Positions 1-20,671 of a stretch of 20,687 nucleotides of DNA are shown here, in pieces. The stretch covers positions 1 through 20,687 of IMG/VR virus record IMGVR_UViG_3300046170_000360. One strand, 5' to 3'. Source of the stretch: a virus. The translations under genes and the position numbers were made by a program. Within the stretch, counting starts at the first letter, position 1. Each line of letters begins with the position of its first letter. The notes under the pieces are model-generated. The model had not been told where the DNA came from. It ran no database searches and saw only the letters and a program-made list of their open reading frames with translations.

Positions 1-580
1 TCTGAACCACTTGTTGATTAGGCATTGGTGTAGGTGGTAATGCTGATTGACCCTCTGGATCAGAGTCAGGTAAAAAATCTTCAAGCTCTAAGTCAAATTC
101 ATCAAATAAAGTTAAACTTTGCATAGCAGCATTCATCGCTCTCAATGTAGGTTCTGCTTCAAAGAATACGTTTGCAATACCTGCTCTTTGTGCGAGGTCT
201 TGAAATCTTTCTTGTAGGCCTTCTGATGGAAAGAATGGATCAAATACACCAGCAGTAAGCTCATTGTATTCTGATTTTAGATTTCTTTTATCAAATATTT
301 CATAAGTTTTAGAAGGTGATATTCCAATTGTTCTAGCATTATCAATTGTATTTAACATTTTCTTACGTGCATTAAAGATTTGTTTGTTAGCAATATAATA
401 TCTCTCGATAACATCTTGTGCAGTTTTCATTTCAGTAGGATCAATCTCACCTGTAAATAGTTTTCTAGAATCTGATATTGCTTTTTGATATTCAAATAAT
501 TTAAATCCTAAAGATTTTTCTGGATCAACTTTGATTGGTCTAAACCCAAATATACCAGCTACTTCTCTTGGTACTTTCAT
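1..580 (-). CDS. C-terminal part of giant virion protein, partial at window edge
   Basis: This frame is open without a stop from an ATG at 580 to the left edge, about 193 residues. It begins MKVPREVAGIFGF and is rich in charged helices. Near the edge come an acidic patch (DEFDLELEDF) and a Pro/Gln-rich stretch. It is in the +1 frame relative to the fragment ending at 540. Removing one base near 592-593 joins GEPGK directly to DLRYMKVPRE, so I read it as the continuation of the large protein starting at 3932 rather than a separate gene. The ATG is probably an internal Met. I recognise no catalytic motif. Role inferred from context: internal virion or ejection protein. Confidence 0.7.
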   Translation of the reverse strand, partial: MKVPREVAGIFGFRPIKVDPEKSLGFKLFEYQKAISDSRKLFTGEIDPTEMKTAQDVIERYYIANKQIFNARKKMLNTIDNARTIGISPSKTYEIFDKRNLKSEYNELTAGVFDPFFPSEGLQERFQDLAQRAGIANVFFEAEPTLRAMNAAMQSLTLFDEFDLELEDFLPDSDPEGQSALPPTPMPNQQVVQ

Positions 581-11017: not shown

Positions 11018-11737
11018 CTATATGTTGTCTTTATAGATCCAGCCTCTAGTTGCATTAACATACACTAAAGTAAATGCAGCACCATTAGCTGAAACAACTA
11101 AATCAGAAGTAGCACCTAAAATTTTAGAACTGTTTCTACCGATTGTTAAATTATTAGATGCAAAATTATTACCACTATCTATAAATGTAACTTCATTACC
11201 TATTGCAGGAGATGCGGGTAAGTTTATTGTAATTGCAGTACCAATACCGCCTCCAGAAGTATCTATTAAAACTTGATCACCATTAACTGTAGTGTAAGTA
11301 GCAGAAGGTGTGTAGTATCCTTTTGTCTGTAATTTTCCTGTAATGTTTGTTCCATCAGAATATAAAACTGTTGTTGATCCAACAGGTAATGCAAGACCTG
11401 TTCCTGAAACTGTTTTAACTGTAAGTGTATAATTAGAAGCTGATCTTGCTGTTGCATCTTCTACTATAAAAACTCTTTCAGCACCATCAGGCATAGTTAC
11501 TGTTCTGTTAGCAGTTAATGTTCCTGTTAATTTGTAATATAAATTTTTACCATTTGATGTTGCATAAGTTGCAAGAGATAAAGCAACGTCCGCTCCACCT
11601 ACTGCAAGTGATAAATAACCACTAGCTGCTTGTTCTAAAATTTGTAAATTTGTATTAGTGATAGTTCCCCATGTACCAGATTTTTCACCTGTTGTTATGA
11701 GTTCTAATTTTAAATCGCTCGATGTACTTGATGCCAT
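11018..11737 (-). CDS. tail fibre protein with shared fibre module
   Basis: A 239-residue protein with a clear AGGAG site. The N-terminus (LKLELITTGEKSGTWGTITN, then LQILEQAASGYLSL) is a typical phage fibre start. Residues about 140-236 form a beta module with INLPASPAIGNEV, NNLTIGRNSSKILG and FTLVYVNATRGWI. The same module, with NLTIGRNSSNI and LVYVDATKGWI, occurs in the three Gly-rich proteins at 16451-20671. It therefore belongs to the same fibre family, although the oxygenase cassette lies between them. Likely a receptor-binding fibre or its base. There is no Gly-rich extension in this member. Confidence 0.8.
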   Translation of the reverse strand: MASSTSSDLKLELITTGEKSGTWGTITNTNLQILEQAASGYLSLAVGGADVALSLATYATSNGKNLYYKLTGTLTANRTVTMPDGAERVFIVEDATARSASNYTLTVKTVSGTGLALPVGSTTVLYSDGTNITGKLQTKGYYTPSATYTTVNGDQVLIDTSGGGIGTAITINLPASPAIGNEVTFIDSGNNFASNNLTIGRNSSKILGATSDLVVSANGAAFTLVYVNATRGWIYKDNI

Positions 11738-11744
11738 ATTTCTC

Positions 11745-12062
11745 CTACGGATTATCTGGGTCTATTGGGACCCATACTTGATTCACACCTGGTGGAATCG
11801 GATTCCATGATATCACACTTACAGGGTTAGTTGCAAGGTTTATTTGATTACCAGATAAAACTACTGTTTGACCTATTTTAATAACTACATTACCTGTAGA
11901 TAGATTTACTCTTTGTCCTGTAGGTAAAACAACTGATTTACCTTCAATAACTACATTACCTACTGAAAAGTTTAATCTTTGCCCACTTACAGTTACAAAT
12001 ATACTAACTCCGCCTGGATCGGCGAATGGTGCTCCGGCAAATGTGCTTCCTCCAAAATACAT
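11745..12062 (-). CDS. short repeat protein, putative tail fibre component
   Basis: I place the start at the ATG at 12062, inside a TAATG overlap with the preceding stop, giving 105 residues. A longer in-frame start at 12119 adds 19 residues that do not match the paralogue. The protein begins MYFGGSTFAGAPFADPGG, almost the same cap as the 275-residue neighbour. It then has about three copies of a 20-23 residue unit (TGQRVNLSTGNVV) and ends with a Trp-rich cap (ISWNPIPPGVNQVW). It looks like the same design with far fewer repeats, so a duplicate that lost repeats or a base version that the neighbour expanded. Role inferred: fibre or surface decoration. Confidence 0.75.
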   Translation of the reverse strand: MYFGGSTFAGAPFADPGGVSIFVTVSGQRLNFSVGNVVIEGKSVVLPTGQRVNLSTGNVVIKIGQTVVLSGNQINLATNPVSVISWNPIPPGVNQVWVPIDPDNP

Positions 12063-12889
12063 TACGGTGTTTGTATCCTTGTCCAAGTTTGTGAGACACC
12101 TGGTACTATACCATCCCACTGTTTAATATTAATAGAAGTTGGTACTGCTATTTCTAATCCTACGCCAGTTGTAATTACATTTGCTTTAGCTTGAATTGTA
12201 ACTGTACCTGTAGATAAATTTTGTCTATTTCCTGTAACAATAGCTGTTGCGTTTGCTTTAGTTGTAGCATTTCCAATTGCTATTTCTACTGCACTTCCTG
12301 TAATAGATACATTTGCTTTTGCAACAACTGATACGTCACCTGTATCTAAATCAACTCTTGATCCTGTAGGTAATACAGTTGCAGCTGCAGTTGTTGAAAC
12401 AGTTCCTGTAGATAATTCTACTCCTGATCCTGTAACACTATATCTAAATGTAAATGTAACTGTACCGGTATCTAATTCTAAAACACTTCCTGATGGTATA
12501 ACTGTTGCTTTACCAATTGTTGTTACATCTCCTGTATCTAAATTAACTCTATTACCTGTAACACCAACAACGTCTATACCTTTTGCTGTACCAGTATCAA
12601 TTTCAAAAGGACTACCAGTTGTAGCTATGTTTGCACCTGCTGCAATAGTAACACTTCCTGTTGCTATCTCTGTTGCAATACCCGATACACCAATAACATC
12701 GGCTACCTGAACATTACCAATTCCAATATTAAATCTATTACCATTTGGTAATATAAGAGCTTTACCAACTATACCAACAGTACCTGTTGATTCGTTAATT
12801 CTATTACCTGTTACAATCGCTAATGCATTAGGATTAAATCCTGGGTCTGCAAAAGGTGCTGATGCAAATGAAGTTCCGCCAAAAAACAT
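12062..12889 (-). CDS. long repeat protein, putative tail fibre component
   Basis: A 275-residue protein starting MFFGGTSFASAPFADPGFN. Residues 26-250 are about eleven copies of a 20-22 residue beta unit of the pattern TG-x-R-x-N/E-L-x-TG-x-V (for example VTGNRVNLDTGDVTTIGKAT). The C-terminal cap is IKQWDGIVPGVSQTWTRI. Unit lengths alternate between 20 and 22 in the first part, then stay at 22. Such strand-turn repeats are typical of elongated fibre shafts. Its AAGGA ribosome site lies 9 nt before the ATG, within the outer arm of the hairpin at 12900-12949, so translation may be controlled by RNA folding. Confidence 0.75.
   Translation of the reverse strand: MFFGGTSFASAPFADPGFNPNALAIVTGNRINESTGTVGIVGKALILPNGNRFNIGIGNVQVADVIGVSGIATEIATGSVTIAAGANIATTGSPFEIDTGTAKGIDVVGVTGNRVNLDTGDVTTIGKATVIPSGSVLELDTGTVTFTFRYSVTGSGVELSTGTVSTTAAATVLPTGSRVDLDTGDVSVVAKANVSITGSAVEIAIGNATTKANATAIVTGNRQNLSTGTVTIQAKANVITTGVGLEIAVPTSINIKQWDGIVPGVSQTWTRIQTP
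12140..12814 (-). repeat. array of about eleven 60-66 bp coding repeats
   Basis: Units begin at protein residues 26, 48, 68, 90, 110, 132, 152, 174, 196, 218 and 240 of the 275-residue protein, so spacing is 20 or 22 residues. The DNA copies are diverged but keep the TGxxxxLxTG core. A region like this can change length by slippage or recombination, which would alter fibre length. Confidence 0.7.
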
Positions 12890-12899
12890 AAATATAAAT

Positions 12900-12949
12900 C
12901 CTTAAAAGGAGACAGGGGGTATGTGGTGGTGCCCTGTCTCCATCTAAGG
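12900..12949 (-). terminator. strong hairpin: terminator-like, overlapping next ribosome site
   Basis: On either strand, GGAGACAGGG (12908-12917) and CCCTGTCTCC (12932-12941) form a perfect 10-bp stem with a 14-nt loop. CCTTA at 12900-12904 and TAAGG at 12945-12949 add a 5-bp outer stem. Read on the minus strand, the main stem is followed by TTTT, as in an intrinsic terminator. The outer arm includes the AAGGA that serves as ribosome site for the gene at 12889. It lies 7 nt after the stop of the last oxygenase gene and is the only sizeable hairpin I noticed. Confidence 0.6.
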
Positions 12950-12955
12950 ATTATA

Positions 12956-13579
12956 TCATCGTTTAAACCAAGAAGGAAGACCTAAATGTGGACGCTTGTC
13001 AAACATATTATCTCTAGCGCCTGGCGTTTTACGATTATTATAATGAAGAAATACTTGTACGCATTCTTTACCTTTGAATTTTTCTCTCCAATGTTCTAGC
13101 TCACAGCCAGAATAAACCAGCATATCTCCTGGTTTTAAATCTACTTTAATACCTTTCATACCAACTTCTCCAGATGGCTCAAGATATATTGGCCAATCAT
13201 CGCCACCAAGATTCATAGTAGTAGATATCTCACAACTAAATCTATCTTTGTGTCTTTTTAAAACATCACCTTTTTTATATATTCTTGCATAAGTATATGC
13301 AGGATATAATTTAAGACCTGTTACCTTTTCCATTTCTGGTTGGCATTTTAACATTAATGTTTCCATAGCAATATTAGAATACTGACTATAAGTTTCTGGT
13401 ATCTGTTCATCTCTACCCTCATAATGACCTATAATATTTTCAAAAGGTGAAATATATTTTTGTGCTCTACAAGTATCATATACTTGTTTTTGCATACTAA
13501 AATAATTTGCAACAAAAGTTGCTAGGTCTTTTGATATTGCTTGACGTATAACTGTATACTTTTTCTTTTTAAAACTCAT
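12956..13579 (-). CDS. 2OG-Fe(II) oxygenase-like protein
   Basis: A 207-residue protein whose start overlaps the previous stop as ATGA. It has the double-stranded beta-helix pattern of prolyl-hydroxylase-like enzymes. H110 and D112 (LKRHKDRF) form the first part of the metal triad. Then come a strand with TTMNLGGDDWPIYLE and the typical KPGDMLVYSG at about 149-157, with H163 (ELEHWRE) as the distal His. A basic residue about 8-10 positions later, in KGKEC, could bind 2-oxoglutarate. Substrate unknown. It is the last member of the oxygenase-like block, followed by the hairpin at 12900-12949. The active-site pattern looks complete, so activity is plausible. Confidence 0.8.
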   Translation of the reverse strand: MSFKKKKYTVIRQAISKDLATFVANYFSMQKQVYDTCRAQKYISPFENIIGHYEGRDEQIPETYSQYSNIAMETLMLKCQPEMEKVTGLKLYPAYTYARIYKKGDVLKRHKDRFSCEISTTMNLGGDDWPIYLEPSGEVGMKGIKVDLKPGDMLVYSGCELEHWREKFKGKECVQVFLHYNNRKTPGARDNMFDKRPHLGLPSWFKR

Positions 13580-14100
13580 ATAAATGTATATATTAAAATT
13601 AATCTAAATCCTTTTTTTGGAACTATATGATAATGAGGTAGTTTACCCCACATAACTACTTTATTTGAAATAGGTTTTATTTTAACTATTTTATTATCTT
13701 TTTTTATACACGTGTATGATTTTAAATCATCACAATGTATGTATATAATTAATTGTTTGTGTTCAAAACTATGATCTAAATGAACATCTGATTTTTCTTT
13801 GCCATTATTAATTGTTAAATTTAAACAAATTCTAAATATTTTTTTAAATTTAAATTTAAGTTTTTTACTTAGTTTTTTTAAAAGATTTGTTGCAAAAGGA
13901 TATAAATTAGAATTAATAGGGTTTGGTAAATTATCTTCGGGTCTATGAAGAATAGTATGTGAAAAAAAACAAAAATTATTTGTTTTATTTATTATTTCTG
14001 TTTTATTTAAGTAAAATGGAAAATTACTATTATTAATAATATTTTTTTTAAAATAATTTTGTGTTTTTTTATCGATTGCATTTAAATATTCTTTAAACAT
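13576..14100 (-). CDS. AT-rich 2OG-Fe(II) oxygenase-like protein
   Basis: A 174-residue protein overlapping both neighbours (8 nt at its start, ATGA at its end). It is extremely Lys/Asn/Ile-rich. H107 and D109 (SDVHLDHSF) plus H156 or H158 (LPHYHIVP) and R166 match the 2OG-Fe(II) oxygenase pattern, and LIIYIHCDD fits the strand between. A hand count of 13621-14100 gives about 88 G+C in 480 bases (18%), against 33-38% in single sampled lines of the flanking genes. That makes it a compositional outlier, suggesting a different origin or relaxed constraint. Activity is plausible because the key residues are present. Substrate unknown. The family call is weaker than for its neighbours. Confidence 0.65.
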   Translation of the reverse strand: MFKEYLNAIDKKTQNYFKKNIINNSNFPFYLNKTEIINKTNNFCFFSHTILHRPEDNLPNPINSNLYPFATNLLKKLSKKLKFKFKKIFRICLNLTINNGKEKSDVHLDHSFEHKQLIIYIHCDDLKSYTCIKKDNKIVKIKPISNKVVMWGKLPHYHIVPKKGFRLILIYTFI

Positions 14101-14725
14101 CTTTAGCCATCTCTTTCGGCACAGCAGTTATATTCCAATGTATAAACCTAAAAGGCTCTTTACCAAAGTCTACTGCAAACTCGTGTTCCAAGAACCCTGG
14201 AAAGATAATTAAAGTTCCAGGTGTAGGTTTAAAATGTATAAGCTCACTACCACCCCATACACCTTTTTGATCTGGTTTCATTTTTAATTTTGTAGCACGT
14301 GCACCTGTTCTCGGTTCGTGAAATACAGGGTAAGATGTTTTATCACTACACTTTAAAAAATAAAAACCTGATACGTGTTGATTCCAATGTACGTGTGCTG
14401 AATGATGACCACCACCTTTTTTAGCAAACTCTTGTACCCACATCTCACTAAACATAGTTGTGTATTGTTGCATATCAAAACCTTGGTGATCTAAATATTC
14501 CCAAGACTTTTGACCAATGTAATTTCTAAAATCTAAAAAGTCATTGTCTGCTGTAAGTGGTGTTGAATGATACGATCTTCCAAAGTCACCATGTTCTTTT
14601 ATAAATTTCTTTTCTCTTGTTCTTGCATCTTTAATATATTTATTAGATGCTTTGTTTAATGATTTTACAAACTCTGGTTTTTGTTCTGACCAAATAGTTG
14701 TACTAAAATAGTTACTTATAAACAT
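14093..14725 (-). CDS. putative 2OG-Fe(II) oxygenase (TIGR02466/PF13759-like)
   Basis: A 210-residue protein starting in a TAATG overlap. The sequence HSAHVHWNQHVSGFYFLK at about 108-125, with H111 and H113 followed by SGFYFL, is the hallmark I associate with the phage and bacterial family TIGR02466 (PF13759). The distal part PTPGTLIIFPGFLEHEF at about 168-183 provides H181, and R193 (EPFRFIHWNI) is positioned to bind 2-oxoglutarate. Members are common in marine phages, with unproven substrates. Its place inside a block of related enzymes next to fibre genes suggests virion-protein or host-target modification, but no substrate can be read from the sequence. Confidence 0.85.
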   Translation of the reverse strand: MFISNYFSTTIWSEQKPEFVKSLNKASNKYIKDARTREKKFIKEHGDFGRSYHSTPLTADNDFLDFRNYIGQKSWEYLDHQGFDMQQYTTMFSEMWVQEFAKKGGGHHSAHVHWNQHVSGFYFLKCSDKTSYPVFHEPRTGARATKLKMKPDQKGVWGGSELIHFKPTPGTLIIFPGFLEHEFAVDFGKEPFRFIHWNITAVPKEMAKDV

Positions 14726-15363
14726 TATTTAAAAGGCCTTCCTAAATGCCAAACAACAAGACTATATCTTGTGCCTGATGTTACGGGTTTAACTCTATGC
14801 CAAACGAAAGAAGGAAATACAATGATAGAACCTTTTGGTAATATTTCTTTTGCTCTTCTCAAATGTCTAGCTTCATCTCTCATATGTGGCTCGTAGTTTC
14901 TAAAATCAAATTCTAATTCACCACCTGTGTATTCTGAACCATCTGTTAATTGACAAGTCATAGATAGTTTTCTAATTCTTCCGTGTTCTGGATCATTAAC
15001 ATCGTCTCGTTGATAAGCTTTATCCCAACTATCACAATGCCAATCATAGTATTGGTTGTGTTTATATTTTGTAAACTGACAAGACTCACTTCTTTCCCAA
15101 TCAAAGTTCCAACCAGCTTGTCTATTTGCTTCGTGAACATATGGATGTAATTCTTTATATATCCAAGTATCATTTAACCAAACTAAATCAGAATTTCTTT
15201 TTCTTTTTAAATCTTTAACTTCTTCTTTAGATAATTTTCTATCACCATAACCGCCAGTTCTAGCCATTGTTTCTTCTTGTTGATTAGCATAAGCTATTAC
15301 ATCATCACAAAACTTTGGTGTAAGTGCGGCAGGAAAATGCCAATAGTAATTAGATATATTCAT
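14725..15363 (-). CDS. prolyl-hydroxylase-type 2OG-Fe(II) oxygenase
   Basis: The best-defined member of the block, 212 residues, starting inside the 3' end of the upstream gene (14-nt overlap). H109 and D111 (YYDWHCDSWD) and H189 (VFPSFVWHRV) form the complete iron triad. R199 (SGTRYSLVVW) is well placed to hold 2-oxoglutarate. LSMTCQLTDGSEYTGGELEF at 133-152 and LPKGSIIVFPS at 175-185 are the standard strands of prolyl 4-hydroxylase-like (PKHD-like) enzymes. It should hydroxylate a protein side chain or small molecule using O2 and 2-oxoglutarate. An insert rich in Arg, Asp and His (158-172) before the last strands may shape specificity. Substrate unknown. Confidence 0.9.
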   Translation of the reverse strand: MNISNYYWHFPAALTPKFCDDVIAYANQQEETMARTGGYGDRKLSKEEVKDLKRKRNSDLVWLNDTWIYKELHPYVHEANRQAGWNFDWERSESCQFTKYKHNQYYDWHCDSWDKAYQRDDVNDPEHGRIRKLSMTCQLTDGSEYTGGELEFDFRNYEPHMRDEARHLRRAKEILPKGSIIVFPSFVWHRVKPVTSGTRYSLVVWHLGRPFK

Positions 15364-15853
15364 AAGTTATTGTTTGAACAAAATTCAAACTATCTTTCTG
15401 ATCATTTGATACAATATACATATTAGTAGACGGAAACATAACAAACATATTTTTTTTAAGTTCTATGTCCCAACTTCTTCCCTTACGTCTATTATCATCA
15501 AAATGTATTCTTACCCAACACTTATCAACTTTAACTCCGTAAAGCATTGTAAAGTCAGGTGAGTTTCGAAGATCTACTGGATCAACATTTAATAAAGGTT
15601 TAGATACTTGACCGGGTTTATAAATGTCACCCCAAGAATCCTTGTTGACTAAATGAATACCATAATCAAGACCAATAAAGTCTCTCATATAAGTATTTAA
15701 CATATCCCAAGTTCTTGAAAATGGAAATTGTTTATTAGTAAATGATGATTGTAAAATATCGTTAGTAAGTTTTTCTTGGTCTATCTCAAAACCTTTCGGC
15801 ATATCGATATCACCATAGAATAGACTTTGTTCTGTTAATACTTTCTTTTGCAT
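15350..15853 (-). CDS. degenerate oxygenase-fold protein (possible pseudoenzyme)
   Basis: A 167-residue protein at the head of the oxygenase block. The C-terminal half resembles the same fold: VRIHFDDNRRKGRSWDIEL at 114-132 with H117 and D119, then NMFVMFPSTNMYIVS at 135-149. Aligning FPSTNMY with FPSFVWH of the next gene puts Y146 where the distal iron His should be and L156 where the 2OG-binding Arg should be. If that alignment is right, the protein is probably not a canonical oxygenase and may be a partner or scaffold. A TTGACA-type promoter-like element precedes it, and GGTGGTGG takes the place of a normal ribosome site. The fold assignment is by eye. Confidence 0.6.
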   Translation of the reverse strand: MQKKVLTEQSLFYGDIDMPKGFEIDQEKLTNDILQSSFTNKQFPFSRTWDMLNTYMRDFIGLDYGIHLVNKDSWGDIYKPGQVSKPLLNVDPVDLRNSPDFTMLYGVKVDKCWVRIHFDDNRRKGRSWDIELKKNMFVMFPSTNMYIVSNDQKDSLNFVQTITYEYI

Positions 15854-15863
15854 ACCACCACCA

Positions 15864-15892
15864 TATATAAAATAATATTAATTATTTGTCAA
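15864..15892 (-). promoter_or_regulatory. sigma70-like promoter before the oxygenase block
   Basis: A perfect TTGACA at 15892-15887 starts directly after the TAG stop of the MAHFAKL-type gene. After a 17-bp spacer comes TATATA at 15869-15864, 10 nt before the ATG at 15853. A transcript would begin almost at the start codon. AT-rich DNA produces chance hits, but the exact -35 box and 17-bp spacing are favourable. Confidence 0.45.
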
Positions 15893-16411
15893 CTATTGAG
15901 CAACCCAAGCTGTTCCGTTCCAATCGTAAATAGATGTATCAGTGTGATCTGTTGCATCTTTATTACTTTTTTTACCTTCCCAACCTTTAGTATTATCAGC
16001 TTGATATGCAGTTTCATTCCAAGTAATAGTCCAATCCCATACAACAGGATCTGCGCCATCATCAGTCACTGATGGATAAGTAATTGGTGCATCCCAAGAT
16101 GCAGTTGAAGTATTTTTAGTCCAAGACGCATATGGTTTTTTAGGCCAGAAAATTTGATTATCTTCGTCCCATTCATAACCTATACCTGCGTAGTTACCTC
16201 TAAAAGGTGTACCACCATCTTTATGTTGATTACCAGATGTATTGTATGAAGTTTGAATCCACATTTGTGCAGGCCAATTATTATGTGTTTCTAAATATTG
16301 TTGACCTACTGCTTCGTCTTCAACACCATCAGCATTTAACATATCTTTGTTATCAAGTGTTAATACTTGAATAACTTTACTGTTAGTTCCTAGTTTTGCA
16401 AAATGTGCCAT
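15893..16411 (-). CDS. MAHFAKL-type marine phage protein of unknown function
   Basis: A 172-residue protein with a strong AAGGAG ribosome site. It begins MAHFAKLGTNSKVIQVLTLDN and contains WIQTSYNTSGNQHKDGG, FRGNYAGIGYEWDEDNQIFW and PYASWTKNTSTASWDAPITY, ending in Trp-rich repeats (IYDWNGTAWV). I recall this pattern (MAHFAKL, WVQTSYN, NYAGIGY, PSW, WDAP) from many cyanophage and other marine phage genomes, where it is uncharacterised and usually near tail genes. The Trp/Tyr-rich strands suggest a carbohydrate-binding or fibre-associated beta domain. That is inference. It separates the Gly-rich fibre genes from the oxygenase block. Confidence 0.8.
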   Translation of the reverse strand: MAHFAKLGTNSKVIQVLTLDNKDMLNADGVEDEAVGQQYLETHNNWPAQMWIQTSYNTSGNQHKDGGTPFRGNYAGIGYEWDEDNQIFWPKKPYASWTKNTSTASWDAPITYPSVTDDGADPVVWDWTITWNETAYQADNTKGWEGKKSNKDATDHTDTSIYDWNGTAWVAQ

Positions 16412-16450: not shown

Positions 16451-17932
16451 CTACTGAAATTTATATCTTATCATTACAATACCTGAACCACCGGCTCCTA
16501 TACTTCCGCCAGGTCCATAACCAGCTCCACCACCGCCTCCCATATTAGCTGCGGCAGTACCTTCTGCAGGTCCACCACCACCAGCTCCACCACCACTAGG
16601 ATGACTTATTGGTCTTCCACCACCACCGCCAGCAAAATATTGTCCTGCAGCTCTTGGTTCTGAAGGGGGAGAAGATGCAGGTTCACCAAAAGAAGGGGAT
16701 GCTGGTCCTATAAAAGTTGTTGGAACAAAAGATCCATCGCCACCCGTACTTATATCTTCTGCTCCTGCCGTGCTTGCTCCACCGCCACCTGCTCCATATG
16801 AACCTGCACCAGGTCCACTTATCGTACCACCAGGTTTTCCTTGAGGTGGACTTACTGGAGGTACATTACCTGCTCCTCCAGAAATTGCTCCAGGTCCACT
16901 AGTATCTCGAGACCCAGCTCCACCACCAGAACCACCATCAGCACCAGGTCTTTGCGGAGTGGGGCTATGATTTCCAGCAGCTCCACCACCTGCAGATGTT
17001 ATTGTTGAAAAACTTGAATTTGAACCGCAATTTCTAGAACTAGATCCACCAGCTCCGCCGCCACCAACGACTACTGGATATCCTTGTGCTGATACAGGTA
17101 AAGCTGCTGGACCATTTAAAGGTGAAGCTGGACTTAAAGCTGTAAATGATCTGAAACCACCTGCTCCTCCTCCACCACCTTGATCACATCCACCAGATCC
17201 ACCACCAGCTACCACTAAATATTCAACTGTATTTGATCCTGCTGAATTACCTACTGAACAAACAGTAAAAGTTCCTGGTCCTGTAAAAATATGGGTTTTA
17301 AAATCACCACAAGTAGATATAGTATTACCTCCTGTTGCTGAAATATATTGTGCTCCATACATTGTTGTAGTTTGATCTTCTGTTGGAATCCAACCTTTAG
17401 TTGCGTCTACGTATACAAGCATTAGAGATTGACCATTTGTTGAAGACGTTCCATCAGCTGCAGATCCTTGAATATTAGAACTATTTCTACCTATTGTTAA
17501 ATTGTTTGTTGCAAAAGTTCTTGCATAATCATTGAAACCTACGATATCTCCTGCACTTGGTGAGGCAGGTAAAGTAGCAGTTACTGCTCCTGATGTAGTA
17601 TTAACAAAATAACCTTCACCACTGGCTGCTGTAAAATTTCCTGTTTTAATACTACCTGTTTGCCAATCAACAGTTCCTGTTCTACCGAATCCTGTCTGAC
17701 TTGCTCCGCTTGCAAGTGATACTGTATCACCAGAAGCACCCAAAGTTATTGTAGTTCCTGATTGTGAAATTATACTTCCGCCATCAGTTGCCTTTAATGC
17801 ATTTGATTTTAAATCTCCATTAACTGTTACTGGAACTCCTGCTGTTACTGAAACTGAATCTCCAGAATCTCCAACAGTTACTGTACCACAATTTGTTCTT
17901 GGACTAATTTTATTTACTTTTACTTCACTCAT
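16451..17932 (-). CDS. Gly-rich tail fibre/adhesin, paralogue 3
   Basis: A 493-residue protein with three parts. Residues 1-85 are a fibre start with repeated TxxLGASGDTV-type units, the second followed by GFGRTGTVDWQTGSIKT. Residues about 95-185 are the beta module with LPASPSAGDIV, NNLTIGRNSSNI and LVYVDATKGW. After a conserved link (HIFTGPGTFTV, 214-224), residues from about 240 are Gly-rich with many Gly runs, containing PPVSPPQG at 358-365. The end is GGSGIVMIRYKFQ. The Gly-rich part recalls polyglycine-II-type adhesins such as T-even gp38, where loops bind receptors. That comparison is inference. It is 37-50 residues longer than the other two paralogues, mainly through an extra N-terminal unit. 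Confidence 0.8.
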   Translation of the reverse strand: MSEVKVNKISPRTNCGTVTVGDSGDSVSVTAGVPVTVNGDLKSNALKATDGGSIISQSGTTITLGASGDTVSLASGASQTGFGRTGTVDWQTGSIKTGNFTAASGEGYFVNTTSGAVTATLPASPSAGDIVGFNDYARTFATNNLTIGRNSSNIQGSAADGTSSTNGQSLMLVYVDATKGWIPTEDQTTTMYGAQYISATGGNTISTCGDFKTHIFTGPGTFTVCSVGNSAGSNTVEYLVVAGGGSGGCDQGGGGGAGGFRSFTALSPASPLNGPAALPVSAQGYPVVVGGGGAGGSSSRNCGSNSSFSTITSAGGGAAGNHSPTPQRPGADGGSGGGAGSRDTSGPGAISGGAGNVPPVSPPQGKPGGTISGPGAGSYGAGGGGASTAGAEDISTGGDGSFVPTTFIGPASPSFGEPASSPPSEPRAAGQYFAGGGGGRPISHPSGGGAGGGGPAEGTAAANMGGGGGAGYGPGGSIGAGGSGIVMIRYKFQ

Positions 17933-17939
17933 AATTTAC

Positions 17940-19283
17940 CTATTGAAATTTGTACCTTATTATTATCACACCTGATCCACCATTTCCACCACCTGCATTA
18001 CCAGATCCTCCACCTGCTCCTCCACCACCGGCGCCTTTGTTAGCATCACCATTTTGTCCCGTTGAACAAGACCCCCCTGGACTTCCAGCTCCTCCACCAC
18101 CGTTTCCACCGCTACCACCTGGACCTGTGGTTCCACCACCACCGCCACCAGCATAAGGCGTTGAACTTGCTGTAATTGAACTAGTTGTTCCAGCACCTCC
18201 ATTTCCTCCTGGACCATTACTACCTGCTACAGTTGCTCCACCACCGCCACCACCACCTGATGGATGAGAAGTTCCCCCAGAATTTCCTTGAGGAGGACTT
18301 ACGGGAGGAGTATTTCCTCCACCATTATTAGAACCTGCATTTCCACTAGCTCCAGCTCCACCTCCAGATCCACCATCATCACCATCTTGTCCTTCGTTAG
18401 CTCCACCGCCACCGCCACCAGTAGAAGTTACTGTTGAAAAAACTGAATTATTACCAACTTCACCTGCTCCTCCAGTTCCACCACCACCTACTGTAATTGG
18501 ATATGCTTGAGCGGTAACTGTTACTGATGTTCCACCAGGATTACCATTTTTAGGTGAAGCAGTATAAGAATCTACTGGGCTTTTAAATTCTCTATAACCA
18601 CCAGCACCACCTCCCCCACCACCATTTCTTGCAGGACCATTTTGACTATTTCCACCAGCTCCTCCTCCAGCAACTACTGTATAAGAAACTACATTCTCTG
18701 CTGCAGTTGATGAAACTTTACAAACTGTAAATGTTCCTGGACCTGTAAATGTATGAATTTTAAAATTTCCTGAAGTTGTTATTGTTCCACCTGATGCAAC
18801 TAAATTAGGATTACCTATAACATTAGATGTTGAATCTTGAACGTTTTTCCATCCTTCAGTATCATCAACATAAACAAAAGTTACAGATTGACCTTCTGTA
18901 GTTAAAGTTATGTCTGCATTTACTCCACCAATTTTTTGTGAACCATTTGGTGAAATTGTTAAACCATTTGTTTGAAATGTATTTGTGTAGTCAACAACAG
19001 AAACAATATTACCTGCTGTTCCTGCTGGTAAGTTCATTGTAAATGCACCGCCTGAAGTGTTTGCAAAATAACCTTCACCATTTGCAGCTGTGAATGTGCT
19101 TGTTTTAATTGACCCTGTTTGCCAGTCTACTGTTCCTGTACGACCAAAACCGGATTGCGATGCACCTGATGCAAGAGTAACGGTATCGCCACTTGCACCA
19201 ATAGTAATTGTATTACTATTTTCATTGATAATGTTATTACCGTCTTGATCCTGAATATTGTCTACTTTAATTGTACTTGTCAT
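17940..19283 (-). CDS. Gly-rich tail fibre/adhesin, paralogue 2
   Basis: A 447-residue paralogue with the same order of parts: TITIGASGDTVTLASGA at 25-41, GFGRTGTVDWQTGSIKT at 45-61, the beta module ending FVYVDDTEGW at about 136-145, and HTFTGPGTFTV at 177-187. From about 204 onward it is Gly-rich, with NTPPVSPPQG at 324-333 and a GGSGVIIIRYKFQ end. It has the most polyglycine of the three. The start has no clear ribosome site and lies 2 nt after the upstream stop, so translation is probably coupled. Because all three ends are identical (IRYKFQ), the end probably has a conserved structural job, while the Gly-rich loops vary, as expected for receptor-binding surfaces. Confidence 0.8.
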   Translation of the reverse strand: MTSTIKVDNIQDQDGNNIINENSNTITIGASGDTVTLASGASQSGFGRTGTVDWQTGSIKTSTFTAANGEGYFANTSGGAFTMNLPAGTAGNIVSVVDYTNTFQTNGLTISPNGSQKIGGVNADITLTTEGQSVTFVYVDDTEGWKNVQDSTSNVIGNPNLVASGGTITTSGNFKIHTFTGPGTFTVCKVSSTAAENVVSYTVVAGGGAGGNSQNGPARNGGGGGGAGGYREFKSPVDSYTASPKNGNPGGTSVTVTAQAYPITVGGGGTGGAGEVGNNSVFSTVTSTGGGGGGANEGQDGDDGGSGGGAGASGNAGSNNGGGNTPPVSPPQGNSGGTSHPSGGGGGGGATVAGSNGPGGNGGAGTTSSITASSTPYAGGGGGGTTGPGGSGGNGGGGAGSPGGSCSTGQNGDANKGAGGGGAGGGSGNAGGGNGGSGVIIIRYKFQ

Positions 19284-19285
19284 AA

Positions 19286-20671
19286 TTATTGAAATTTATA
19301 CCTTATTATTACTATACCAGAGCCACCATTTCCAGCTTTAGCTGCTGGTGAAGAAGTTCCTGTGTTTCCACCACCTCCACCACCTCTGTTAGTAGTTCCA
19401 TCTCCAGCGTTTCTATCTATAGGTGGACTTGCTGCTGGCGCAGAAGTTGCTCCAACTCCACCTGTTCCACAAGGAGAAGCTGCTCCGCCTGCTGCAGAAG
19501 TTGGTCCATTTTGCGCTCCACCTCCAGCACCACCTGCATATGAAACTGCACTTCCTGTAATTGCTGTTGGTACACCTACAGCTCCATTACCTGCGGAGTT
19601 GTTATTACCAACAGGTGTTTGTGTTGCTGCAGCACCTGCACCACCACCTCCACCACCTTTTCCATTTAAACCTGGTTGACCACTACTTCGACCACCATCT
19701 TGTCCTTGAGGTGGACTAACAGGAGGTGTATTTCCCGATCCTCCCGTTCTACAAGCAGTTGCACCACCACCACCACCTCCAGATCCACCTGGATCTCCAT
19801 TTCCAGAACTTGGTGGTCCACCGCCGCCACCACCACCAGCTGATGTTATACTTGAAAAAACTGAATTAACTCCATTTGCTCCAGGAGTACAAGAACCGGT
19901 TACACCGGTTCCACCTCCACCCACTGTAATTGGAAAGCCTGTTGCTGTAATTGATATATCTGCTGCTCCTTCTAATGGACTAGCTGTATAAGTATCTACA
20001 GGTGATTTATTTTCTCTAAATCCTCCTGCTCCACCGCCGCCACCACCATTTCCTCCAGAACCTCCTGCTCCACCACCAGCTATAACTGCATAACTTACTG
20101 TATTTTCTGCAGCCACAGTTGATATTTGAGAAACACAAAAAGTTCCTGGGCCAGTGAATGTATGAATTTTAAAATCTCCAGAAGTTGTTATTGTACCACC
20201 AGTTGCAACTATGAATTGGCTTCCTGTAACTGAATTAGATGTTTCTTGAACATTAATCCAACCTTCTGTTGAATCAACATATACGAAAGTTGCTGTTTGA
20301 CCTTCAGTAGATAATGTTGCATCTGCTGCAACACCACCAATTTTTTCCGATCCATTTGGACTAACTGTTAAATTATTTGTTTGAAAAGTTCTTGTGTAAT
20401 CTGAAACTGCAACAACTGCACCAGCACTACCTGCTGGAAGATTAACAGTAAATGCTCCTCCACTTGTATTACAAAAATACCCCTCTCCTGCTGCCGCAGT
20501 AAACGTAGCTGTTTTAATACTTCCTGTTTGCCAAGACACAGCTTGAACTCCAGATACTTTAGATGCAGATAGTGTTGCACCTGACGGAATTGTTACTGTA
20601 TCACCAGAAGCACCTAGTGTTAATGTAGTTCCGCATTGTGGTTCAACTGTATTTACTTCTATTTTACTCAT
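19286..20671 (-). CDS. Gly-rich tail fibre/adhesin, paralogue 1
   Basis: A 461-residue paralogue. TTLTLGASGDTVTIPSGATL lies near residues 15-34, WQTGSIKTATFTAA at 47-60, the beta module with NLPAGSAGAVV and FVYVDSTEGW at about 77-138, and HTFTGPGTFCV at 170-180. A Gly-rich half follows, with NTPPVSPPQG at 314-323 and GGSGIVIIRYKFQ at the end. It differs from its siblings in several Cys residues (C67, C179, C261, C307, C401) that could be solvent-exposed. The ATG is in a TAATG arrangement, so an upstream gene beyond the right edge may end here; only 16 bases of it are visible, too few to identify. No ribosome site is visible. Confidence 0.8.
   Translation of the reverse strand: MSKIEVNTVEPQCGTTLTLGASGDTVTIPSGATLSASKVSGVQAVSWQTGSIKTATFTAAAGEGYFCNTSGGAFTVNLPAGSAGAVVAVSDYTRTFQTNNLTVSPNGSEKIGGVAADATLSTEGQTATFVYVDSTEGWINVQETSNSVTGSQFIVATGGTITTSGDFKIHTFTGPGTFCVSQISTVAAENTVSYAVIAGGGAGGSGGNGGGGGGAGGFRENKSPVDTYTASPLEGAADISITATGFPITVGGGGTGVTGSCTPGANGVNSVFSSITSAGGGGGGGPPSSGNGDPGGSGGGGGGATACRTGGSGNTPPVSPPQGQDGGRSSGQPGLNGKGGGGGGAGAAATQTPVGNNNSAGNGAVGVPTAITGSAVSYAGGAGGGAQNGPTSAAGGAASPCGTGGVGATSAPAASPPIDRNAGDGTTNRGGGGGGNTGTSSPAAKAGNGGSGIVIIRYKFQ

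Follow-up and report, generated by a model that had tools for sequence, protein, structure and literature searches.

Why should a marine phage carry a run of oxygenase-type genes in the middle of its tail-fibre locus? The question is raised by IMG/VR virus record IMGVR_UViG_3300046170_000360, of which positions 1 to 20,687 were analysed (this whole stretch of 20.7 kb is called the window). An earlier reading made from the letters alone (the sequence-only reading) described a block of five oxygenase-fold genes with start and stop signals of its own and took it for a moron-type insertion that interrupts the fibre locus. The window holds part of a pelagiphage genome of the HTVC023P type: the queried stretch is 83-84% identical to Pelagibacter phage HTVC023P and to phage 023Pt_psg01 over 65-69%. 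The gene cluster and its neighbours have already been published for phages of this type (Wittmers et al. 2022, PMC9599517). On the minus strand, in order of transcription, the locus comprises three glycine-rich (Gly-rich) fibre genes, p7, p6, p5, p4, p3, p2, a hairpin, f1, f2, f3 and T (Table 1). The five genes of the block, p6 to p2, are indeed consecutive and overlapping, by 4, 8, 1 and 14 nt counted from p2 to p6.

With modest confidence, we favour the reading that the block makes up the enzymatic half of a Gly-rich tail-fibre module, itself exchangeable, and is a fibre-tailoring operon with self-limiting RNA feedback. This is built on five computational results: the genes present, a hairpin with covariation, the joint change of the p6 leader and the hairpin loop, the constant place of the hairpin behind the last oxygenase gene, and the association of the block with Gly-rich fibres.

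Linkage of the block to Gly-rich fibres

The locus was compared across a set of 230 loci, mostly anchored on p4, p7 and f3, together with 129 anchored on T; some contigs are present under two identifiers. The full order p7-p6-p5-p4-(p3)-p2 is found in 94 contigs, and close relatives, HTVC023P and 023Pt_psg01 included, have the core p6-p5-p4-p2 in unchanged order. The gene before p7 is Gly-rich in every contig with a gene called there (132/132).

Between the core genes there are slots for additional genes. Of the p6/p5 junctions 27 of 138 are occupied, compared with 14 of 119 for p5/p4 and 19 of 106 for p4/p2, where three more hold a relative of p3. The extra genes mostly encode further 2-oxoglutarate (2OG)-type proteins; others, judged only by their sequence, are tryptophan halogenase-like (L020, L082), sulfotransferase-like (L030, L035, L071, L102, L120, L128) or HNH. 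The last is an HNH-type, homing-endonuclease-like open reading frame (ORF) at the p5/p4 junction (L032/L033).

The block is absent from loci in which f3 is 85-97% identical to that of the window (the flanks f3 and T being about 85-97% identical) but which carry another fibre set. A linkage table was drawn up from contigs with at least 4 kb upstream of T, within one phage backbone and with two duplicates removed. Nineteen contigs have both the oxygenases and the Gly-rich fibres, two the oxygenases without the fibres, three the fibres without the oxygenases and nine neither (p = 2.5e-4). Both contigs with oxygenases alone start at p6 or near p7, where the Gly-rich gene would fall outside the contig. 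Among the 12 block-less loci having enough sequence, the Gly-rich fibres are replaced as well in nine. Two isolates from the same host behave similarly: HTVC023P has Gly-rich fibres and the block, while HTVC027P lacks both, as well as the hairpin. Because the linkage table and the two same-host isolates agree, we conclude that the fibre set and the enzymes are exchanged largely as one module. The sequence-only reading was thus correct in seeing a bracketed oxygenase unit that relatives with nearly identical flanks lack, but its emphasis on an interruption was wrong. An empty site was not seen in relatives' loci with enough sequence.

Two further arrangements were noted in the course of this comparison. 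HTVC027P carries three opposite-strand genes near the same site (gp72-74, L598:7292-8953), one of them annotated as a 2OG oxygenase. In L205, L425, L375 and L427, Gly-rich genes alternate with p7-like genes, which suggests that each fibre has a p7 protein for its partner, acting at the tip or in assembly.

The linkage bears on an alternative, that the oxygenases are auxiliary metabolic genes (AMGs) or host-takeover genes (acting in 2OG/nitrogen balance, or in nucleotide or lipid/glycan modification) which merely ride with the fibre region. There are published readings of this kind, 2OG/nitrogen signalling and DNA repair for cyanophages (PMC3037559) and partner AMGs for HTVC023P-type phages (PMC9599517), and members of these families are found close to neck or baseplate genes in myoviruses. 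However, the strong linkage to Gly-rich fibres within a single backbone speaks against it, the slots also hold other tailoring-type enzymes (sulfotransferase-like, tryptophan halogenase-like), and oxygenases are listed with host recognition in marine phage islands (PMC3909814). We therefore regard the metabolic explanation as rather unlikely.

Two RNA elements at the ends of the block

The hairpin after p2 has arms at 12897-12917 and 12932-12952 with a 14-nt loop, and is the top entry among the window's inverted repeats. It sits in the stretch of 66 non-coding nucleotides (12890-12955) that separates the block from f1. Among 26 relatives compared, all 17 predicted pairs (17/17), in the G+C upper and the A+U lower stem alike, have undergone a double compensatory change at least once. 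Most of the loop CACCACCACATACC is retained while the stem sequence is replaced (for example, in L031, L085, L091 and L144). A covariance model (R1) gives 80.2 bits for the window hairpin and one match per locus apart from reverse-strand echoes; it finds no copy in the block-less loci searched, nor in HTVC027P, and no Rfam family matches the hairpin. Of 60 copies, 57 are directly 3' of an oxygenase-type gene and the remaining three have less than 30 nt of upstream sequence; in seven copies this last gene is an oxygenase other than p2.

At the other end, the p6 leader (GGTGGTGGTATG) holds the ribosome-binding site and start codon for p6, with which the block opens, and GTGGTGGT within it (15861-15854) is complementary to the hairpin loop. 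The window pairing comprises 8 nt with a duplex energy of -15.1 kcal/mol and ranks first of 58 candidate start windows; the p6 leader heads the ranking of start windows by loop match in 77 of the 96 loci.

Loop and leader vary in concert from one lineage to the next. In five contigs (L019, L469, L472, L487 and L502), recruited by separate searches with each motif, the loop ACCACCTCAATC and the leader ATTGAGGTGGTA are both unlike the common type and form a 12-nt perfect complement (12 contiguous pairs between loop ACCACCTCAATCACC and leader ATTGAGGTGGTA). In L068, where the likely start is GTG and not ATG, TCCACACCA in the loop is matched by TGGTGTGGA in the leader; L044 has the pair CATACCACC (loop) and GGTGGTATG (leader); HTVC023P and L282 combine loop CCACCAA with leader TTGGTGG; and leader GGTATGTGGT fits the common loop in a shifted register, with 10 nt matching. 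A single-cell contig found later (L597, described below) also fits the pattern. Letters shuffled at random reach the observed run with a probability of 0-0.004 in L019, L502, L465, L068 and L044, and of 0.009 in the window. With seven class representatives, 42-56 of 5040 arrangements are equally good. The loci's own leader-loop pairs beat 2000 of 2000 shuffled pairings (41 unique pairs), a permutation that overstates independence as the sequences are related.

Besides this relatedness, several observations weigh against a dedicated leader-loop pairing. About ten loci without a G-rich motif in the p6 leader keep the common loop and match over only 6-7 nt, and three with a class-B loop (L595, L074, L551) over only 5 nt. 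Where another gene is first in the operon, the match is only about 6 nt (L205, L425, L375, L427) or not evident (L308, L339). Runs of GGT-GGT glycine codons in the fibre genes at 16451-20671 likewise match the class-A (common) loop over 8-9 nt, with 30 sites of 8 nt. Finally, the composition of both leader and loop is constrained by likeness to the Shine-Dalgarno (SD) sequence.

This last point is central to a second alternative, in which the hairpin is mainly a terminator or an mRNA-stabilising 3' end with a protein-bound loop, and the complementarity derives from SD/anti-SD likeness. The position in a non-coding gap and the UUUU following the G+C stem are as this would have it. Another point for it is that the class-B loop contains CACCUC, which resembles the anti-SD of 16S rRNA. 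On the other hand, the eight A+U pairs of the lower stem covary, and the UUUU is therefore paired rather than free; the joint change of leader and loop extends beyond the SD core (TTGA/TCAA, UGGUGUGGA/UCCACACCA); and other SD-bearing gene starts match the loop less well in most loci. We judge this alternative unlikely. The strong terminator-like hairpin of the sequence-only reading is real, conserved and covarying, but it appears not to be a plain terminator, because its loop is conserved, its lower stem covaries and its U-run is paired. It is probably a riboregulator, and in any case a conserved RNA element. A terminator scan of the window omits it on account of its 14-nt loop.

Leader and hairpin might instead be terminal repeats or recombination joints for cassette exchange at the DNA level. 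They do stand at the two ends, and the enzymes between them are replaced in L205, L425, L375 and L427. But the complementary stretch is short and follows the ribosome-binding site and start codon, the stem sequence is free to vary while its structure is kept (an RNA-type signature), and no site was seen that has the two ends but is empty in between, which makes this improbable.

The start signal described by the sequence-only reading, TTGACA (15892-15887), a 17-nt spacer and TATATA (15869-15864), is present as stated and begins directly after the p7 stop codon; the predicted transcription start would be only a few bases 5' of the p6 ATG. The pattern TTGAC[AT]-15..18-TA was sought in the p7-p6 spacers, with an expectation obtained by shuffling. 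Of the 22 distinct long spacers, some of which are unlike in sequence, 18 contain it, against 0.07 expected, but none of the 33 short ones does (55 distinct spacers in all). The element is thus more than chance, yet optional, and in most relatives the block presumably shares a transcript with the fibre genes. A moron-type insertion that brought its own promoter and terminator, for which the conservation of the promoter element in a subset and the lack of the block in relatives with near-identical flanks can be cited, is accordingly very doubtful, given that most distinct spacers are without the promoter, and given the core in place in close relatives (the 94 contigs above), block-less loci that mostly lack the Gly-rich fibres too (no simple insertion) and a mostly uniform codon use.

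Identity of the block proteins and their neighbours

Of the five proteins said to have an oxygenase fold, four (p2, p3, p5 and, as a putative member, p4) are supported as 2OG-Fe(II)-type oxygenases by profile searches, motifs and, for p2, a predicted model, against a threshold of three by profile search set by the sequence-only reading; the fifth, p6, is not. With Pfam profiles, p5 matches PF13640 above the cut-off (E 7.7e-16), and its metal triad and distal basic residue, H109-x-D111..H189..R199, are invariant in 19 sequences; its similarity to PiuC has an E of 3e-4. p4 matches PF13759, also above the cut-off (E 3.9e-12), and TIGR02466 at E 1.3e-14, which is below that model's own cut-off; its motif is HxH..H and not HxD.

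p3 itself is without a Pfam match. Within its family (19-61% identity to p3), H107-x-D109..H156..R166 is invariant and 11 of 18 relatives match PF13640 (best 1.4e-6). Its position varies among relatives, the slot being filled otherwise or empty. PHROG 274, to which p3 belongs, is labelled DNA endonuclease V; no such Pfam match was found in 18 members, which gave 2OG profiles instead. The label is contradicted by fold and motif, and this is a 2OG-type family.

The p2 family has the invariants H110-K-D112 and H163, without a clearly placed distal basic residue. The predicted p2 model (pLDDT 69, pTM 0.70) is a double-stranded beta-helix, with P. putida prolyl-4-hydroxylase (E 1.5e-7) and PHD2 as top Foldseek matches and a Z of 14-15 to several 2OG enzymes by VIA. 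The fold evidence for p2 depends on this model because the p2 and p5 profiles did not align in profile-profile comparison; nor did those of p3 and p5. Searches of solved structures by sequence with p2, p3 and p6 profiles gave only chance-level matches. The annotation of PHROG 2954 as ferrochelatase was also considered: no ferrochelatase profile in Pfam was matched by 40 members, and the predicted fold and the motif are 2OG-like. From the model and the motif, p2 appears to be a 2OG-type oxygenase and the name 'ferrochelatase' to be wrong. There are 156 phage records holding a p2 relative and many, including cyanophage and pelagiphage records, bear this name.

p6 is conserved (relatives 68-93% identical to the window protein), but an oxygenase fold is not supported. 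No histidine is invariant among 40-42 sequences, so that the metal triad is wanting; profile searches gave no match, profile-profile comparison with p5 and p3 gave nothing, and the AlphaFold model (pLDDT 45) is unusable. Named phage records with p6 are limited to HTVC023P and 023Pt_psg01. It is found in addition in one SAR11 single-cell contig (L597, QCMS01000007.1; 59.5 kb, phage-genome-like, from a Pelagibacteraceae genome) and, because this contig carries the same p6, leader and hairpin, a host of the window phage among SAR11, the most common bacteria of the ocean, is supported.

The fibre module said to be common to the Gly-rich genes and the downstream 239-residue gene (f3) was confirmed: f3 residues 148-238 match one Gly-rich protein with 46% identity (E 2e-21) and another with 43% (E 5e-14). 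Codon use, whose uniformity the sequence-only reading had named as evidence against an insertion, is close to that of the structural genes for p3-p6 (|z|<1.7), but p2 deviates (z 4.8). The p3 gene of the window has a G+C content of 18%.

Table 1. Features of the block and its flanks in the window
Feature	Coordinates	Strand	Remarks
Gly-rich fibre genes (three)	16451..20671	-	GNxPPVSPPQG motif, PF21722; exchanged together with the block
p7	15893..16411	-	172 aa, PHROG 7759; small protein directly 3' of Gly-rich fibre gene; upstream flank of the block
Promoter-like element	15864..15892	-	TTGACA-17-TATATA
p6 leader	15851..15866	-	Ribosome-binding site and start, ATATGGTGGTGGTATG
p6	15350..15853	-	167 aa; conserved first gene of the block; no invariant His
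p5	14725..15363	-	2OG-Fe(II) oxygenase (PF13640), PKHD-hydroxylase-like
p4	14093..14725	-	PF13759 / TIGR02466-type putative 2OG oxygenase
p3	13576..14100	-	Accessory 2OG-type protein, optional slot gene, PHROG 274
p2	12956..13579	-	2OG-type oxygenase, PHROG 2954
Hairpin	12894..12958	-	Conserved, 17 bp; loop CACCACCACATACC at 12931-12918
f1-f3	11018..12889	-	Downstream fibre genes; 90-aa module of f3 also in Gly-rich genes

Proposed mechanism and comparison with known systems

In the fibre-tailoring operon that we favour, two RNA elements would mark the ends of the block, the p6 leader at the 5' end and the hairpin, with its exposed complementary loop, at the 3' end. Once the operon has been transcribed to its end, the loop, either in the same mRNA or in a released 3' fragment, would pair with the leader, cover the ribosome-binding site or the start codon of p6 and lower translation of the operon. 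We infer from the complementarity that this pairing occurs and represses translation. Such negative feedback would limit enzymes that consume iron and 2-oxoglutarate. These would most likely hydroxylate or otherwise tailor the Gly/Pro-rich fibres encoded just upstream and alter receptor recognition. The Gly-rich fibre is preferred as the probable substrate because of the linkage, the conserved GNxPPVSPPQG motif, the prolyl-hydroxylase-like p2 model and the other tailoring-type enzymes in the slots; host surface or small molecules may also be substrates. Tentatively, and with less than even confidence, we propose that the two elements form a matched RNA lock, in which the 3' loop co-evolves with the ribosome-binding site and start of the first gene, and which could serve as a portable frame for swapping fibre-tailoring enzymes. 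If so, any set of enzymes placed between leader and hairpin would come under the same self-limiting control.

If correct, this would provide a testable function, the tailoring of Gly-rich fibres, for the long-puzzling oxygenase clusters of marine phages. It would remove a misleading 'ferrochelatase' label from many of the 156 phage records and add a conserved RNA element, probably a riboregulator, outside all Rfam families. In the part of the literature covered, we found no report of fibre linkage at fine resolution, of a correction of 'ferrochelatase' or of a leader-hairpin pair, and the terms tried for hydroxylation of phage fibres yielded no relevant paper.

One close known system is the HTVC023P-type cluster itself (PMC9599517), which is of the same phage type and has oxygenases beside the so-called ferrochelatase. 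It was read as iron/heme-related partner AMGs, whereas here the 'ferrochelatase' has a predicted 2OG fold, and the cluster is linked with Gly-rich fibres and flanked by a leader and a hairpin that match each other. The 2OG clusters of cyanophages and pelagimyophages (PMC3037559; HTVC008M, Mosig) likewise have three to five related oxygenases near virion genes, but differ in having no p6 and no R1 hairpin in the searched stretches of HTVC008M, Mosig and HTVC033P. Among the variable host-recognition genes in metaviromic islands of marine phages (PMC3909814) are Fe(II)-dependent oxygenases; in the present case, both the exchanged unit and its RNA borders are resolved. Finally, OppZ and CarZ, autoregulatory small RNAs derived from 3' untranslated regions in Vibrio cholerae (PMC7398697), are alike in that an RNA from the 3' end of an operon is complementary to its own transcript; in contrast to these, the element described here is the loop of a phage hairpin, whose complementarity to the leader and co-change with it were found by computation.

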